The notes under the pieces were generated by a model, which was not told where the DNA came from, ran no database searches, and saw only the letters and a list, made by a program, of their open reading frames with translations. A stretch of 61,698 nucleotides of DNA from an uncultured Mediterraneibacter sp. (GTDB lineage Bacteria; Bacillota; Clostridia; Lachnospirales; Lachnospiraceae), in the NCBI RefSeq assembly GCF_944377805.1, contig NZ_CALWFZ010000012.1:1-61698 (forward strand), read 5' to 3'. Both the position numbers and the translations under genes were made by a program. Shown here in pieces: positions 9,991 to 17,083 of this stretch (within the stretch, counting starts at the first letter, position 1; each line of letters begins with the position of its first letter).

Positions 9991-10044
9991 ACTCGATTCC
10001 TCCTGCTTCATTTTCTTATGATACCACTAAAAAGTCGAGAGTAC

Positions 10045-10081
10045 AAATAAAACAGGGCTGATATTAACAGAATCAGCCCTG
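10045..10081 (-). terminator. terminator after leuA fusion gene
   Basis: A perfect 10-bp stem CAGGGCTGAT/ATCAGCCCTG (10053-10062 with 10072-10081) is followed on the minus strand by TTTTATTTG. The plus strand also has a T-run after the stem (CCGTTTTTTTT), so it could work both ways, although no plus-strand gene ends here. Confidence 0.8.
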
Positions 10082-10147
10082 CCGTTTTTTTTATGTAGGA
10101 TATATACTCTTTTCTCTGAAGGAAGCAGTAAGATCCTTTTGGGATAG

Positions 10148-12136
10148 TTACTTCCGATTTCGGTATTGTACCGGTGTTATATTGTACATCTTCTTAAATA
10201 CTCTGTTGAAATGCTCTACGTTCTGGTATCCCACAGATTCCGCGATACTTTCTACTGTGGCGCTGCTTCCTTTAAGCATCGCCCGCGCTTTTTTCATGCG
10301 GATCTTCTTTAAGATGTCCCCAAAGGTCATTCCCGACTTCTCTTTGATATACTTTGAGAGGTACGGTTTTGAGAGGTAGAATTTCTCAGCGAGATCATCA
10401 AGAGTTACATCTTTGTAATTTGCATAGATATAGTTTGTGATCTCAAGAAGTCTGGCGTCCTTGCCCATCTGAGTCTCGGCAATCTCTTTTATCTTATTTA
10501 CTGCAACTACGAGCGCTTCGATGGATGCTTTGATAATATCCGCATCAATACCTACGCCCCAGTAGCGCTTTTTATTGCATATGACTCCCACATAGGCAAC
10601 TGCTCTGGAGGAAGAACCTTTTGTCAGGGAATGTTCCTCGTAGGCTGAGAGTTCATAGCTGATGTCAAAGTAGTGCTTGATTGCGTTGCTGACAGCATCC
10701 AGGCGGCCGTTTCCGACACCTGTGATCTGGTAATCTTTGTTGTTATGATGGATCGTCGCTTCGGCGATGATGCCGTTCTCCTGTTTGAAATGGCACTCAT
10801 CCACCGCAAATATCGGTTTTGCGGTAATATAGTTATCCTCAAAGATCCGGTATACCCAGTCAGGGGTAAGTTCTTTATGGGCTTTGTCGGACACATCTTT
10901 AACCAGGTATCCGACCTCCTCTTTCATCTTGTCAGGAAGACTGATGCCAAAGCTCTGTTTCAGAATATAGTTTACGCCGCCTTTTCCTGACTGACTGTTA
11001 ATGCGGATAACATCCGAATCATATCTCCTTCCAACATCCTGAGGATCGATAGGCAGATACGGTACACTCCATGTAGACAAATTGTGCTCTTCTCTCCATG
11101 CCATGCCTTTTGCGATAGCGTCCTGATGTGATCCGGAGAAGGCAGTAAATACAAGATCTCCGGCATATGGCTGGCGGGGAGAGACTTTCATCCCTGTTAC
11201 CCTCTCATATACTTCGCAAATATCGCTCATATTGGAGAAGTCGAGTTTAGGATCAACTCCCTGTGAGAACATGTTCATGGCAAGGGTGATAATGTCCACA
11301 TTACCGGTGCGCTCTCCGTTTCCAAACAGAGTTCCCTCAATACGGTCCGCCCCGGCGAGAATCCCCAGCTCAGCATCGCTGATACCGGAACCGCGGTCAT
11401 TGTGGGGATGGAGAGAAAGGATCACATTTTCTCTGTTAAGAAGATGTTTGTCAAAAAACTCAACCTGACTCGCAAATACATGAGGCATTGCGTTTTCTAC
11501 CGTAGTCGGAAGATTGATAATCGCCTTATTTTCCTCTGTGGGCTTCCAAACGTCAAGTACCGCGTTGCACACTTCCAGAGCGTAGTCAACCTCTGTTCCC
11601 TGGAAACTTTCCGGGCTGTACTCAAATGTAAAATTGCCGCTGGTCTCTCCGGCAAGTTTCTTGAGAAGTCTTGCCCCGTCAACTGCGATCTGCTTGATCT
11701 CATCTTTGTTTTTTCTGAACACCTGCTCTCTCTGAGCGACAGAAGTGGAATTATACACATGTATAATCGCGTGAGGAGCTCCCTTTACCGCCTCAAAGGT
11801 TCTCTTAATAATATGTTCCCGCGCCTGAGTCAGTACCTGAATCGTCACATCATCAGGAATCATATTTTGTTCGATCAGTGTGCGAAGAAACTGATACTCT
11901 GTCTCCGAGGCCGCCGGAAAACCGACTTCAATTACTTTAAACCCCACATCTACAAGCATCTGGAAGAATTCCAGTTTTTCCTCCAGGCTCATAGGCTCGA
12001 TCAGCGCCTGATTGCCGTCCCGAAGATCAACGCTGCACCAGATTGGCGCTTTGTCAATGGAATCCTTTTTCACCCAGTCGTAACATGGTTCCGGCGGCAT
12101 AAAATAACTCTTTTCATATTTCTTCCAATTCTCCAT
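10148..12136 (-). CDS. leuA: 2-isopropylmalate synthase fused to a C-terminal AraC-type HTH domain
   Basis: 662 aa. Residues 1-430 are the DRE-TIM barrel of the actinobacterial/long LeuA type, with the signature [14 protein letters not shown] at 37-50 and metal-binding [11 protein letters not shown]. Residues about 430-555 form the LeuA allosteric dimer domain, which in ordinary enzymes binds leucine. Residues 560-662 are unlike any normal LeuA. They read as a complete AraC-family DNA-binding domain with two helix-turn-helices, including [20 protein letters not shown] and then [20 protein letters not shown], and end with the ITPVQYR signature. No frameshift or stop lies at the joint. The enzyme makes 2-isopropylmalate from acetyl-CoA and 2-ketoisovalerate. 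The HTH suggests a leucine-sensing enzyme-regulator, which is inference. SD: AGGAG 12 bases before the ATG. Confidence 0.93.
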
Positions 12137-12200
12137 TTTCTGTACATCTCCTTATATTTCATCAATATGATTGTTTTATTTTATTCTTACTAATACTAAC

Positions 12201-12217
12201 ATATGATAGAGTCATAT
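12201..12217. promoter_or_regulatory. inverted repeat upstream of the leuA fusion gene
   Basis: A perfect dyad ATATGA-N5-TCATAT lies 65-81 bp upstream of the start codon. A tandem TTAGTA TTAGTA (minus strand) lies next to it on the gene side. It is the only strong dyad seen in the 122-bp gap and is a candidate operator, possibly for the fused HTH domain itself. No T-box or other leader RNA was recognised. Confidence 0.4.
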
Positions 12218-12258
12218 TCCAGTGGTAAATTTAATCACTTTTATTGATGTATTTTAAT

Positions 12259-13491
12259 CTATCGCTGCATAAAGAACATATCTCTGATATAATCCAGGCA
12301 TATTTTGCATGTTCTTTTTTTCACCGACTCTCCCGAGACAAGCGCATAGGTCACCGCCCGGCTTCCGTTTACTGTATAGATCAGGCTGCCGAGAACTTCT
12401 CCTTTCTGTACCGGCGCGGCAAGATCTTCTTTTAGTTCTGCCGTTCGTTCAACTTTATCATTCCGGCTCATCAGCACCTGGGTGGAATCACCTCTGGTCA
12501 ATACCGGAATTTTTACGCCTTTGTCTGACGGGTATCCGTTTACATATCCGTTTTCAATTATGATTTCCAGGTCAGGCTCTTCCGGGATGATTGTCTGATA
12601 TGTATAGTTTTCTATCCCATAAGTCATCAGTTTTCTTGTATCCGCCCATTTATATCCTTTATTATTCGGCCATCCGCATGCCAGAAGAGCCACGATAAAA
12701 GTGCGGCCTTCGCTTGTGAGCGCACCTACATAACAATATCCGGCATCTGCGGTAAATCCGGTCTTTCCGGTAAGAGCTCCCTCCATCATTTTAAGAAAGG
12801 CATTGTGGTTTGTGCAGGAATATGCTTTTGTGCCGCTGCAGTCTGAAAAGGAATGGGAATCTGCGCGTGTGATCTCAAGAAATGTATCCTTTTCCGGAGA
12901 TTCCATAATGCAGTAGCGCATGATGAGCGCCAGATCTGCTGCGGTAGTGTGATGGATCCCGGTATCATCCTTGGCGTCCAGTCCGTTCGGAGTTATGAAA
13001 TATGTAGAAGTACACCCCAGATCATTTGCTTTCTCATTCATCAGCAGGGCGAATGCACTGACGCTTCCGCTGATATGTTCGGCGATAGCCACTGCCGAGT
13101 CGTTGTGGGATTCCAGCATCAGAGAATAGAGAAGATCATTGAGGCAGAACTCATCTCCGGCCTGCATTCCAAGCTTTACCTCAGGCTGTGACTGCGCGTT
13201 TTCACTTGCGGTCACTTTATCGGTGCGGTTTCCATTTTCAAGAGCCAGAATACACGTCATGATCTTTGTTGTGCTCGCCATCGGAGCCTCTTCATTTCCG
13301 TTTTTTGCAAATAAAATACGCCCGGTAGCGGCGTCCATAAGAACCGCGCAGCGGGCGTACAGTTGTGATGGGCTTATCTGTGAATTTTCCGCCGCTTTCA
13401 CGGCAAAACATGATGTAATAAAGAGGGAAATACTTAACACGGCGGCAAAAACAGCCGCTCCCGTTTTTCTTATAATCCAAAGATCACTCAT
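12259..13491 (-). CDS. D-alanyl-D-alanine carboxypeptidase (S11 family, DacF-like)
   Basis: 410 aa, secreted: a hydrophobic signal segment at about 10-32 precedes AVKAAE. The three penicillin-binding active-site motifs are present: S73-T-T-K76, S128-H-N130 and K243-T-G245. A C-terminal PBP5-type domain follows (about 300-390). It trims the terminal D-Ala of peptidoglycan pentapeptides. A second S11 enzyme lies at 15887-17083; the two flank scpAB and are only distantly alike. There is no obvious C-terminal amphipathic anchor, the protein ending in RDMFFMQR. Confidence 0.93.
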   Translation of the reverse strand: MSDLWIIRKTGAAVFAAVLSISLFITSCFAVKAAENSQISPSQLYARCAVLMDAATGRILFAKNGNEEAPMASTTKIMTCILALENGNRTDKVTASENAQSQPEVKLGMQAGDEFCLNDLLYSLMLESHNDSAVAIAEHISGSVSAFALLMNEKANDLGCTSTYFITPNGLDAKDDTGIHHTTAADLALIMRYCIMESPEKDTFLEITRADSHSFSDCSGTKAYSCTNHNAFLKMMEGALTGKTGFTADAGYCYVGALTSEGRTFIVALLACGWPNNKGYKWADTRKLMTYGIENYTYQTIIPEEPDLEIIIENGYVNGYPSDKGVKIPVLTRGDSTQVLMSRNDKVERTAELKEDLAAPVQKGEVLGSLIYTVNGSRAVTYALVSGESVKKRTCKICLDYIRDMFFMQR

Positions 13492-13556: not shown

Positions 13557-14126
13557 TTAAATATCAAGGGTCAGCTGCGCTTCGTCTTCTGCTTCTTCCT
13601 TAAAGTGCTCGATCTGTTCCTGATCAAGAGCGGGCATATCATCTAAAGACTGCAGACTGAATCTGCGAAGAAACTCTTCTGTTGTTCCAAACAGCAAAGG
13701 GCGGCCGGGCGCTTCCAATCGTCCGGTCTCCTCAATCAGGCCGTATTCTACCAGTTTATTGACTGCATGATCAGACTTTACGCCCCGGATCTTTTCGATC
13801 TCCAGCTTTGTCACCGGCTGCTTGTAAGCCACAATTGACAGAGTTTCCAGGAGAACATCCGTAAGCGTATATCGGCGGGGCTGCTTTGCCACCCGGACCA
13901 GATACTCATACATCTCCTTTTTCGTACAGAACTGAAATGAGTTGTCAAGTTCGATGATACGAATTCCCCGGTCTTCTTCTTCATACCGGTCCATCATATT
14001 ATGTATCATCTTTTTCGTCGTCTCCTCATCGTGACCGATGGCATCAGCGATTCTGGAAAGTTCCACCGACTCTCCCATTGTAAACAAAATGGCCTCCACG
14101 GCCGCCTGAACCTTCTCAATCTCCAT
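13557..14126 (-). CDS. scpB: ScpB, segregation and condensation protein B
   Basis: 189 aa from the ATG at 14126 (MEIEKVQAAVEAILF), which overlaps the scpA stop by 11 bp. An ATG at 14147 is possible but not conserved-looking. It contains two winged-helix domains, with the conserved TDVLLETLSIVAYKQPVTK at about 88-106 split around the domain joint and the GRPLLFGTT motif near 142-150. ScpB bridges ScpA and the SMC heads in chromosome condensation. The acidic C-terminus is typical. Confidence 0.95.
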   Translation of the reverse strand: MEIEKVQAAVEAILFTMGESVELSRIADAIGHDEETTKKMIHNMMDRYEEEDRGIRIIELDNSFQFCTKKEMYEYLVRVAKQPRRYTLTDVLLETLSIVAYKQPVTKLEIEKIRGVKSDHAVNKLVEYGLIEETGRLEAPGRPLLFGTTEEFLRRFSLQSLDDMPALDQEQIEHFKEEAEDEAQLTLDI

Positions 14127-14874
14127 CCAAATCCCCAGTCCTTTCAATCAGTATCTCTCCACAGGTATGATCCTGCTTTACATGGATCTCCCCAAGTTTC
14201 ATCATTTCAAGAATCGCCAGAAATGTTACGACCACATGCATCCTGCTGTGCTGCTTCCTGAGAAGCTGTCGAAAACTGAAGTTTCTGTGATCCCGCAGAT
14301 ATGTATGAATATAAATAAATTTGTCGCTAAGGGATACCTCTTCCTTCTCAATTTTCCCGAACTTGCTTCTGACAGGATCAATCTTCTCCGTCTGGCGTTT
14401 CATCACTTCCTGAAAAACAGCATTTAGTTTTTCAAGTGTGAGCTCGCTTAGAAGCTGATCTAAATTTACCGGCTCCACATACTCTTCTACCTCCTCCGGA
14501 ATGGTCGGAGATTTGTACATAATCCTATCCGAGTCATTCTCCCGGTCTTTAAGTTCACAGGCGATATATTTGTACATCTTATACTGAAGAAGCTGCTCCA
14601 CCAGTTCCCGGCGGGGATCTTCCTCCTCACCTTCCTCGTTTACTTCTTTTGGAAGCAGCATCCGGCATTTAATATCGAGAAGCGTCGCAGCCATGACAAG
14701 AAATTCACTCATGACATTTAAATCTTCCCGCTGCATGTTGCGGATATATTCCATGTATTGATTTGTGATCTCCACAATCGGAATATCATAGATGTCTATT
14801 TTACTTTTATCAATCAGATGAAGCAGAAGGTCAAGAGGGCCTTCAAATACTTCCAGTTTTACAGGAATTCCCAT
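14116..14874 (-). CDS. scpA: ScpA, segregation and condensation protein A (kleisin)
   Basis: 252 aa. The N-terminal motif VFEGPLDLLLHLIDKSKIDIYDIPI (seen from residue 8 as VFEGPLDLLLHLI and following) is the kleisin SMC-binding signature. The C-terminal winged helix (about 175-250) ends FLAILEMMKLGEI and beyond. It bridges SMC heads with ScpB in the chromosome condensation complex. GGGAG precedes the ATG by 5 bases. scpA and scpB overlap and are surely co-translated. Confidence 0.95.
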   Translation of the reverse strand: MGIPVKLEVFEGPLDLLLHLIDKSKIDIYDIPIVEITNQYMEYIRNMQREDLNVMSEFLVMAATLLDIKCRMLLPKEVNEEGEEEDPRRELVEQLLQYKMYKYIACELKDRENDSDRIMYKSPTIPEEVEEYVEPVNLDQLLSELTLEKLNAVFQEVMKRQTEKIDPVRSKFGKIEKEEVSLSDKFIYIHTYLRDHRNFSFRQLLRKQHSRMHVVVTFLAILEMMKLGEIHVKQDHTCGEILIERTGDLDGD

Positions 14875-15886: not shown

Positions 15887-17083
15887 TTATAGAAATACTT
15901 TTTGTATCGTATCCGTCAGATAGTCAATATAAGATGCTTTCTCCACCTCTTCAGACGCGGTAATTTCTGTGCGTCCAAGCTCATTTCCATCCAGAGTATA
16001 TACGATCTGTCCGACCACATCTCCTTTGCCAACCGGCGCGGGTACCGGTTCGTTTAACTGTACTGTTCTTTCGATTCCATTGAGATTGCTTCCTTCCGTA
16101 TCAAGATAGGAAAAAACGTCCGCTCTCTGTACGTCAGCAGTATCTTCTACGCCATTTTCCACTCTGACAGATGAGATTCCCTCAGTACTCTCATCCGTGT
16201 ACAGCTGACATTTCCCAAAACCATAATTCAAAAGCTTCACCGCATCCGCGAAACGCTCTTTGGAATTTTCCGCTGCCATAACGACAGCGATCAGTTCAAT
16301 TCCGTTTTTCTCGGCAGTTGCGGAAACGCAGAATTTCGCCTCTCCTGTGGAGCCGGTTTTCAGTCCGGTGGCGTATTCATACTGGCGCACCAGTTTATTC
16401 GTATTAGTCAGACCAAACTCTGAAGTTCCCTTATCTGTTTTGTGTGTGATATTTTCCATCCAGATCATGGAATAATCGTGTACCTGAGGATATTTCGTGA
16501 TGAGTTCCCGCGACATCAGGGCAATATCTCTGGCGCTTGTCATGTGTCCTTCGGCATCCAGACCGTTACAGTTGGCAAAATTTGTGTTTTCCATACCAAG
16601 TTCCTGGGCGCGCTCATTCATTCGCCGGACAAATTCTTCTTCGTTTCCGCATATGTATTCCGCCATTGCCACGCAGGCGTCATTTGCGCTTGCCACGGCA
16701 ATACACTTCAGCATAGTGTCAACAGTCTGCGTCTCCCCTGGCTCTAAAAACACCTGGGAACCTCCCATAGAAGCCGCATATTCCGAAACCGTCACCTCGT
16801 CCTCCGGAGTGATTGCCCCCTCCTCAATCGCGTCAAAGATCAATAACATCGTCATAACTTTTGTGACGCTTGCCGGAGCCCTGGCAGTATCCGCATCCTT
16901 TTCAAAAATCACCGTTCCCGTAGAAACTTCCATGAGAATCGCCGAAGGGGCGCTGATGTCAACCGGGCTTACGGTCTCTTCACTCTCCTGTTCCGGCTCA
17001 TTGTCTGCCAGAGCATTGTATGGAGTACACAGACATCCTAAAAATAACACGAGCGAAAGTACAATTGCCTGAATCCGCTTCAT
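15887..17083 (-). CDS. D-alanyl-D-alanine carboxypeptidase (S11 family, DacF-like)
   Basis: 398 aa, exported: signal peptide about 1-27 (MKRIQAIVLSLVLFLGCLC, then ALADNE). Active-site motifs are S72-V-T-K75, SAND (SxN) near 131-134 and KTGST near 233-237. A C-terminal PBP5-like beta domain follows, ending in SYIDYLTDTIQKVFL, a likely amphipathic membrane-anchoring helix. This is the more canonical DacF of the two carboxypeptidases here. The gene is divergent from the dnaJ-like gene across a 178-bp control region. Confidence 0.94.
   Translation of the reverse strand: MKRIQAIVLSLVLFLGCLCTPYNALADNEPEQESEETVSPVDISAPSAILMEVSTGTVIFEKDADTARAPASVTKVMTMLLIFDAIEEGAITPEDEVTVSEYAASMGGSQVFLEPGETQTVDTMLKCIAVASANDACVAMAEYICGNEEEFVRRMNERAQELGMENTNFANCNGLDAEGHMTSARDIALMSRELITKYPQVHDYSMIWMENITHKTDKGTSEFGLTNTNKLVRQYEYATGLKTGSTGEAKFCVSATAEKNGIELIAVVMAAENSKERFADAVKLLNYGFGKCQLYTDESTEGISSVRVENGVEDTADVQRADVFSYLDTEGSNLNGIERTVQLNEPVPAPVGKGDVVGQIVYTLDGNELGRTEITASEEVEKASYIDYLTDTIQKVFL

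Follow-up and report, generated by a model that had tools for sequence, protein, structure and literature searches.

Leucine synthesis is known to be controlled by separate sensors such as RNA leaders, T-boxes, Lrp and CodY. The LeuA enzyme dimerises by way of its regulatory domain, and AraC occupies two half-sites with its two helix-turn-helix (HTH) domains. Metabolic enzymes that double as transcription factors, the trigger enzymes, are an established class: for E. coli, PMC8249747 names BirA, NadR, PepA, PutA and PyrH, and has PutA binding only the putA/putP spacer. For the AraC/XylS family, 106 companion domains have been counted, and the main text of that survey contains neither LeuA nor HMGL nor isopropylmalate (PMC5882156).

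The window analysed here, 61,698 nt of DNA from a Mediterraneibacter species (Lachnospiraceae, Clostridia, Bacillota), carries a leuA gene whose product shares the barrel, the linker domains and the LeuA_dimer domain with long-type LeuA (PRK03739; PDB 1sr9). The 1sr9 protein ends after LeuA_dimer, whereas the window protein continues into an AraC-type double HTH. This HTH exceeds the cut-offs for HTH_18 and HTH_AraC, its solved relatives by sequence include a YesN-type regulator, the xylose operon regulator, SoxS, GadX, Rns, MarA and AraC, and a candidate tandem-repeat site with a modest repeat signal adjoins the promoter. What sets the protein apart from the AraC/XylS family is the companion domain, a whole amino-acid-synthesis enzyme. 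The likeness to trigger enzymes lies in a metabolic enzyme that would double as a transcription factor by way of a fused DNA-binding part and, as described for PutA, at its own gene too, whereas the enzyme and the DNA-binding family differ and LeuA-AraC is presumably an activator, acting at the committed leucine step. A T-box leader of leuA is an RNA that reads tRNA charging, and the leuA gene of the window lacks one; in Actinobacteria, PMC1262725 describes a different leader, the LEU element, at leuA. No report of a LeuA-AraC fusion was found in the PMC literature searched, a collection with most subscription journals outside it. What is new here is a 40-bp element upstream of LeuA-AraC genes; the trigger-enzyme kind of regulation was already known.

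Table 1. Features of the leuA-araC locus, in window positions
Feature	Position	Strand	Remarks
Terminator-like hairpin, stretch 3' of the gene	10035..10095	(-)	-19.5 kcal/mol, z -5.0
leuA-araC fusion gene	10148..12136	(-)	662 aa, single ATG-started uninterrupted ORF
AraC-type double HTH, aa 582-662	10151..10393	(-)	HTH_18 582-661, HTH_AraC 624-660
Variable linker, aa about 550-565	10442..10489	(-)	top-residue frequency 0.44 (68 fusions), pN 0.197
LeuA part, aa 1-549	10490..12136	(-)	barrel 31-307, IPMS_D2 327-393, LeuA_dimer 422-549; Pfam and 1sr9 alignment
Ribosome-binding site AAGGAG	12148..12153	(-)	sequence
Core of second conserved block O2 (CAA-N5-TTGA)	12162..12173	(-)	just downstream of presumed transcription start
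Extended -10 (TG T TAGTAT)	12193..12201	(-)	17 nt after O1
Operator-like element O1, 40 bp	12219..12258	(-)	ATTAAAATACATCAATAAAAGTGATTAAATTTACCACTGG; directly after the upstream gene's stop codon (12259-12261)

Architecture, spread and history of the fusion

An earlier note on this DNA had read the gene as LeuA and an AraC-type double HTH in a single frame, which the ORF and Pfam confirm: HMGL-like, IPMS_D2, LeuA_dimer, HTH_18 and HTH_AraC all score above their curated cut-offs, LeuA_dimer being complete (91.8 bits against a cut-off of 24.9) and HTH_18 reaching 77.4 bits (cut-off 33.6), with two HTH motifs within about 100 residues. The best whole-protein model is PRK03739 (806.6 bits, cut-off 455), whereas the protein falls 15 bits short of the narrower equivalog TIGR00970 (682.1 against 697.4). 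Since 1sr9, which aligns to residues 26-548 in two pieces, stops three residues past the aligned LeuA_dimer part, the HTH is appended at the natural C-terminus of LeuA. R80, N83, E218 and Y410 are given as functional residues of LeuA in PMC10464499. In the window protein, R39, N42, E176, H243, H245 and Y360 correspond to R80, N83, E218, H285, H287 and Y410 of 1sr9, and none of the six varies among 33 aligned sequences, so that the catalytic and metal-binding residues of the DRE-TIM barrel are present. We take H285 and H287 of 1sr9 to be the metal binders. Among the positions that we assume to form the leucine pocket, five are kept (G475, N476, G477, L479, Y499) and four are changed (D480, L496, S503, S510).

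The fusion is the only LeuA match in its own genome (93% complete), where 19 further matches to the protein cover the HTH part or its border only. The earlier statement that no other leu gene lies beside it proved correct: leuC and leuD are on another contig (C23), behind asd (leuD and asd named by eye). The upstream neighbour encodes a D-Ala-D-Ala carboxypeptidase, and as its stop codon touches O1 and a terminator-like hairpin follows the fusion gene, leuA-araC is probably transcribed alone; the hairpin is missing from the output of the pattern scan, whose largest loop is 8. The carboxypeptidase gene is one of two Peptidase_S11 paralogues (12259-13491 and 15887-17083, both on the minus strand), and the ORFs between them at 13557-14147 and 14116-14874 presumably correspond to scpB and scpA.

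A sample of 299 genomes from the family, each representing one genus, gave LeuA matches (E 1e-60) in 271. At least 69 carry the fusion, a lower bound because the family matches considered reach down to about 778 bits. In 68 genera, that of the window included (L001, L009-L037, L162-L199), the frame is intact over 661-676 aa; the remaining fusion (L148) runs into the end of its contig within the HTH. The 67 other intact fusions are 62-87% identical to the window protein, and named carriers include Mediterraneibacter, [Ruminococcus] torques and faecis, Coprococcus comes, Hespellia, Muricomes and Schaedlerella. Conservation of the LeuA-HTH pair across Lachnospiraceae, proposed earlier as a check, is thus a direct observation, and a frameshift or assembly join at the domain border, looked for as the opposite outcome, left no sign. 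Two genera (L147 in G061, L152 in G078) have a stop codon between LeuA and HTH and nevertheless retain a conserved HTH and the operator (scores 37.7 and 19.3); there, a free-standing HTH protein may be produced. In a single metagenome-assembled genome (MAG; L087), the linker contains a one-base shift, either a sequencing error or real, in parts that are 91-95% identical to the window.

Searches beyond the family with the C-terminal 242 residues of the fusion gave full-length matches in 3 of 391 genomes at class level (G373, G509, G511) and in 1 of 398 at phylum level (G950). These four (L333-L335, L340) have fusion and operator together in other families, which looks like joint horizontal transfer or mis-binned contigs. 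Among the five matches listed from plasmid records, LeuA occurs without a complete HTH. On a quick tree of the LeuA parts, in which 37 of 97 inner branches are weakly supported, the fusion state needs five changes, the deepest family branches are non-fusions with a T-box, and three non-fusions (L153, L154, L161) are nested among fusions in the pattern expected after loss. From these sequences, a single origin of the fusion is likely. The idea that non-fusion genes are decayed fusions was rejected, as 24 of 27 shorter genes have no HTH remnant past the stop; the other three are L087, L147 and L152.

Among 50 close relatives compared with the window, the HTH is the least changed of five segments (residues 1-29 left out), with a median changed nonsynonymous proportion of 0.024, against 0.045 for the barrel, 0.050 for residues 311-420, 0.072 for LeuA_dimer and 0.197 for the linker. 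Raw proportions replace dN/dS because synonymous sites are saturated, one usable pair being left for the HTH. Across the 68 genera, the mean top-residue frequency of the HTH (0.74) is similar to that of LeuA_dimer (0.73) and lower than that of the barrel (0.86), with the linker at 0.44, which weighs against our main reading. Within the HTH, P591, Y592, S594, K595, Y596, I597, N639, E641, H642, F643, R645 and F647 are kept at 0.94-1.00 in the 68 fusions, and P591, Y592, S594, K595, E641, H642, F643 and R645 at 0.96-1.00. We assume that these near-invariant positions (P591-I597, N639-F647) lie in the recognition helices.

The operator-like element and its association with the HTH

The consensus of O1 over 63 genera, atTAAAAtAnATCAAtaaAAnTGATTAAAtttancanTtn, can be read as two half-sites ATTAAA-N4/5-TCA, 22-23 bp apart. 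Self-comparison gives an identity of 0.50 at 22 bp and 0.44 at 23 bp, with 0.40 as the next best value, a modest signal obtained without a control; one C and one G do not vary among 39 aligned sites. Leave-one-out scoring covered the 70 fusion or split genera whose upstream DNA is long enough; L027, with 47 nt before the gene, was left out. Of the 70, 63 exceed a score of 5 (55 exceed 15, eight reach only 5-15), and shuffled 400-nt regions score around -17 (sd about 5). The seven genera at or below 5 (L031, L180, L182, L190, L191, L194, L196) weigh against our main reading, since at least four of them (L031, L180, L191, L196) have an ordinary-looking HTH; L031, L190 and L194 have TGnTA at 16. 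The four fusions from outside the family, never part of the matrix, score 33.7, 25.1, 44.6 and 47.1 with the same spacing of 17 to the -10. In ten genera (L015, L016, L017, L020-L023, L025, L035, L148), O1 doubles as an inverted repeat resembling a terminator (for example AAGGAAAGTGA...TCACTTTCCTTTTTT), placed between the upstream gene and the leuA -10; the same DNA may serve as operator and terminator there.

The spacing to the -10 is nearly fixed. TGnTA follows O1 at 17 nt in 51 of the 63 genera, at 16 in six and at 15 in two, and is absent in four (L019, L170, L192, L193); in a set of 112 distinct upstream regions that includes close relatives, 100 have a spacing of 17. In the window, the -35 position is occupied by TGGAAT, a poor hexamer that overlaps the end of O1. 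Of 57 upstream regions that have both operator and -10, 24, mostly near the window in the tree, also contain O2, as a rule CAA-N5-TTGA and starting 14-21 nt past the -10; shuffles give 2.4 on average and at most 9. The RNA of O1 and the 5' UTR folds no better than shuffles, which speaks for O1 acting as DNA rather than as an RNA element.

Upstream regions of 40 non-fusion leuA genes (639-1371 nt, first codons included) contain no O1, the best scores being -0.3 on the coding strand and 2.0 on the other. For 17 of these genes the absence of the HTH was established by translation; for the other 23, the match ends at residue 554 or earlier and the open frame has at most 623 aa. Fisher's test for fusion against O1 gives 4e-23, although the genera are related and therefore not independent. 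Three supported independent pairs are available, on average 2.8 of them concordant and none opposite (sign test p 0.25); this small number of independent events behind the association weighs against our main reading. The three non-fusions nested among fusions lack O1 along with the HTH, and L182 (G240), a fusion in which otherwise near-invariant HTH residues are changed (SEEEFSAYMKEKSG, NVAEFEQEFQKK), also has no O1; it has a T-box-like core, recognised by pattern only, at -130. The tie of O1 to the HTH, like O1 itself, is a computational observation. Mapping of the conserved upstream DNA, as the earlier note had suggested, thus yielded a 40-bp element that is present in 63 of the 70 fusion or split genera and absent from all 40 non-fusion leuA genes; for the note's claim that the fused protein regulates transcription, this element within 12137-12258, the interval that the note had singled out, is supporting comparative evidence.

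Candidate genomic targets and T-box leaders

Other targets were sought with a sequence-only operator model in 22 fusion and 22 non-fusion genomes, the first 150 candidates per genome from a loose initial screen being scored. Within this range, the leuA promoter was matched in all 22 fusion genomes at 21.2 bits or more and was the best site in 21; the best match in the non-fusion genomes was partial, at 18.6 bits. Because most of these leuA sites helped to build the model, the leave-one-out scores are the fairer test. The exception is G207, not in the model, where a full operator 125 nt upstream of the leuC match (L221/L245; 23.8 bits) outscores the genome's own leuA site. At leuC of the window's genome no site was found, either among the first 150 candidates or by scoring its upstream region. 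When leuC and the best ilvB-like gene were scored in 15 fusion and 15 non-fusion genomes, positive 40-bp scores were obtained only for leuC of G207 and ilvB of G191; the loci taken as ilvB from L292 on are only 42-48% identical and may be paralogues.

The ilvB sites of G191 (18 bits) and of the window's genome (14.9) are both within the noise of the non-fusion genomes (up to 18.6). For the site of the window's genome, conservation adds weight. In the window's genus, 57 of 58 genomes contain, with at most two mismatches, a half-site pattern next to TTGACA that was written after the sites of G000 and G148 were seen; the reversed control gives hits in 5 of 58. Before ilvB lie 24 of the 30 pattern matches fetched, two of the other six being short contig ends, and in 22 of the 24 a T-box core (by pattern) stands between half-site and ilvB. 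The whole ilvB promoter is conserved in the genus, so the conservation of the half-site is not independent; in the window's genus the half-site touches a consensus -35 box, which could equally mean repression.

A wide regulon is not supported. Inspection covered L225, L226 and 20 more that were fetched, a part of all weaker sites; none of these 20, read by eye, lies before a recognised leu or ilv gene, and one (L313) is about 270 nt before an asd-like gene. The second exact match to the short pattern in the window's own genome is inside murC (named by eye). The description of the protein as a regulator of branched-chain synthesis applies chiefly to leuA-araC itself. Beyond that gene there are the ilvB half-site of the window's genus and the full leuC site of one other genus, and leuC of the window's own genome showed no site.

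Rfam T-boxes (RF00230) precede leuA in 14 of 17 non-fusion genera scanned and in 10 of the 68 intact fusions, there downstream of O1 (the scan covered 400 nt upstream for L162-L199 and 47 nt for L027). The window's genome has 13 T-box matches, seven above the cut-off, with one before ilvB and none at leuA. We dropped the idea that T-box and operator are mutually exclusive, since the T-box fusions had scored low only within 400 nt: in longer upstream DNA, all ten have a site above 5 upstream of the T-box, the weak ones being L188 (10.1) and L192 (11.5, without TGnTA). HTH and operator thus go together with or without a T-box. L089 combines an Rfam T-box with an operator site of 42.6 upstream, and L340 has an operator site upstream of a T-box core recognised by pattern only.

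Proposed mechanism and alternative readings

That the enzyme controls its own gene is very probable, given O1 at the leuA promoter of most bacteria with the HTH and of none examined without it. We consider it likely that LeuA-AraC is a trigger enzyme that binds a site in its own promoter, most likely activating its own gene, with leucine probably modulating DNA binding; binding, the sign of the effect and leucine as the signal are what we infer from the arrangement described above. We propose the following scheme, in which (i) LeuA-AraC makes 2-isopropylmalate and its C-terminal double HTH would bind the tandem half-sites of O1; (ii) the LeuA dimer would bring two HTHs together on flexible linkers, one per half-site; (iii) the protein at O1, upstream of the extended -10, would most likely activate its own transcription, because O1 reaches the -35 region at near-fixed spacing where a good -35 is lacking, an arrangement that would suit a directly contacting activator; (iv) leucine in the LeuA_dimer domain would probably alter DNA binding as well as activity, such that the protein would activate leuA when free of leucine but not when leucine is bound. 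In the window's clade, O2 past the start point may be bound as well and serve shut-off or looping. The half-site abutting the -35 box of ilvB (acetolactate synthase) would add a second target in the window's genus. Gating by leucine through LeuA_dimer is plausible. On a broader proposal our judgement is evenly balanced: that the fusion is a one-protein homeostat in which a single leucine site in LeuA_dimer sets both enzyme activity and transcription of leuA (in the window's genus also of ilvB), and which originated within Lachnospiraceae, in one or a few events, on a background of T-box control, replaced the T-box at most descendant leuA genes and spread with its operator to a few other families of the class or phylum.

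The alternative that holds up best, which we nonetheless regard as unlikely, is that the HTH autoregulates through O1 in response to something other than leucine, namely the protein's own amount, 2-ketoisovalerate or acetyl-CoA, or as a simple autorepressor. The near confinement of O1 to the protein's own promoter in the 22 fusion genomes (first 150 candidates each) would suit an abundance homeostat, the variable linker offers no obvious coupling path, and O1 extends into the -35 region, a position that would suit a repressor too. However, the LeuA_dimer domain is complete, and an almost constant distance to an extended -10 that lacks a good -35 fits activation better than occlusion by a simple autorepressor.

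It is far less probable that O1 belongs to another regulator, or is an AT-rich part of the promoter, with the HTH as a passenger. The seven fusion or split genera without a clear O1 and the 19 other places in the genome that match the HTH part are compatible with this, but no match exceeds 18.6 bits in the 22 non-fusion genomes (first 150 candidates each) and none occurs at the 40 non-fusion leuA genes, the C and G in O1 are invariant in 39 aligned sites, and the pN of the HTH is the lowest of the five segments. An assembly or gene-calling artefact or a decaying fusion, for which the two genera with a stop and the one MAG with a one-base shift between the parts might speak, is refuted by the intact frame in 68 genera, also on contigs longer than 2.9 Mb (L011, L014).

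If LeuA-AraC acts as proposed, the committed enzyme of leucine synthesis would be its own transcription factor across dozens of gut-commensal genera and their kin. One gene with a 122-bp promoter region would offer a compact test of how feedback inhibition and gene control can depend on a single allosteric site. The genera in which HTH, operator and T-box are retained, combined or lost would form a natural series for the study of regulatory turnover.
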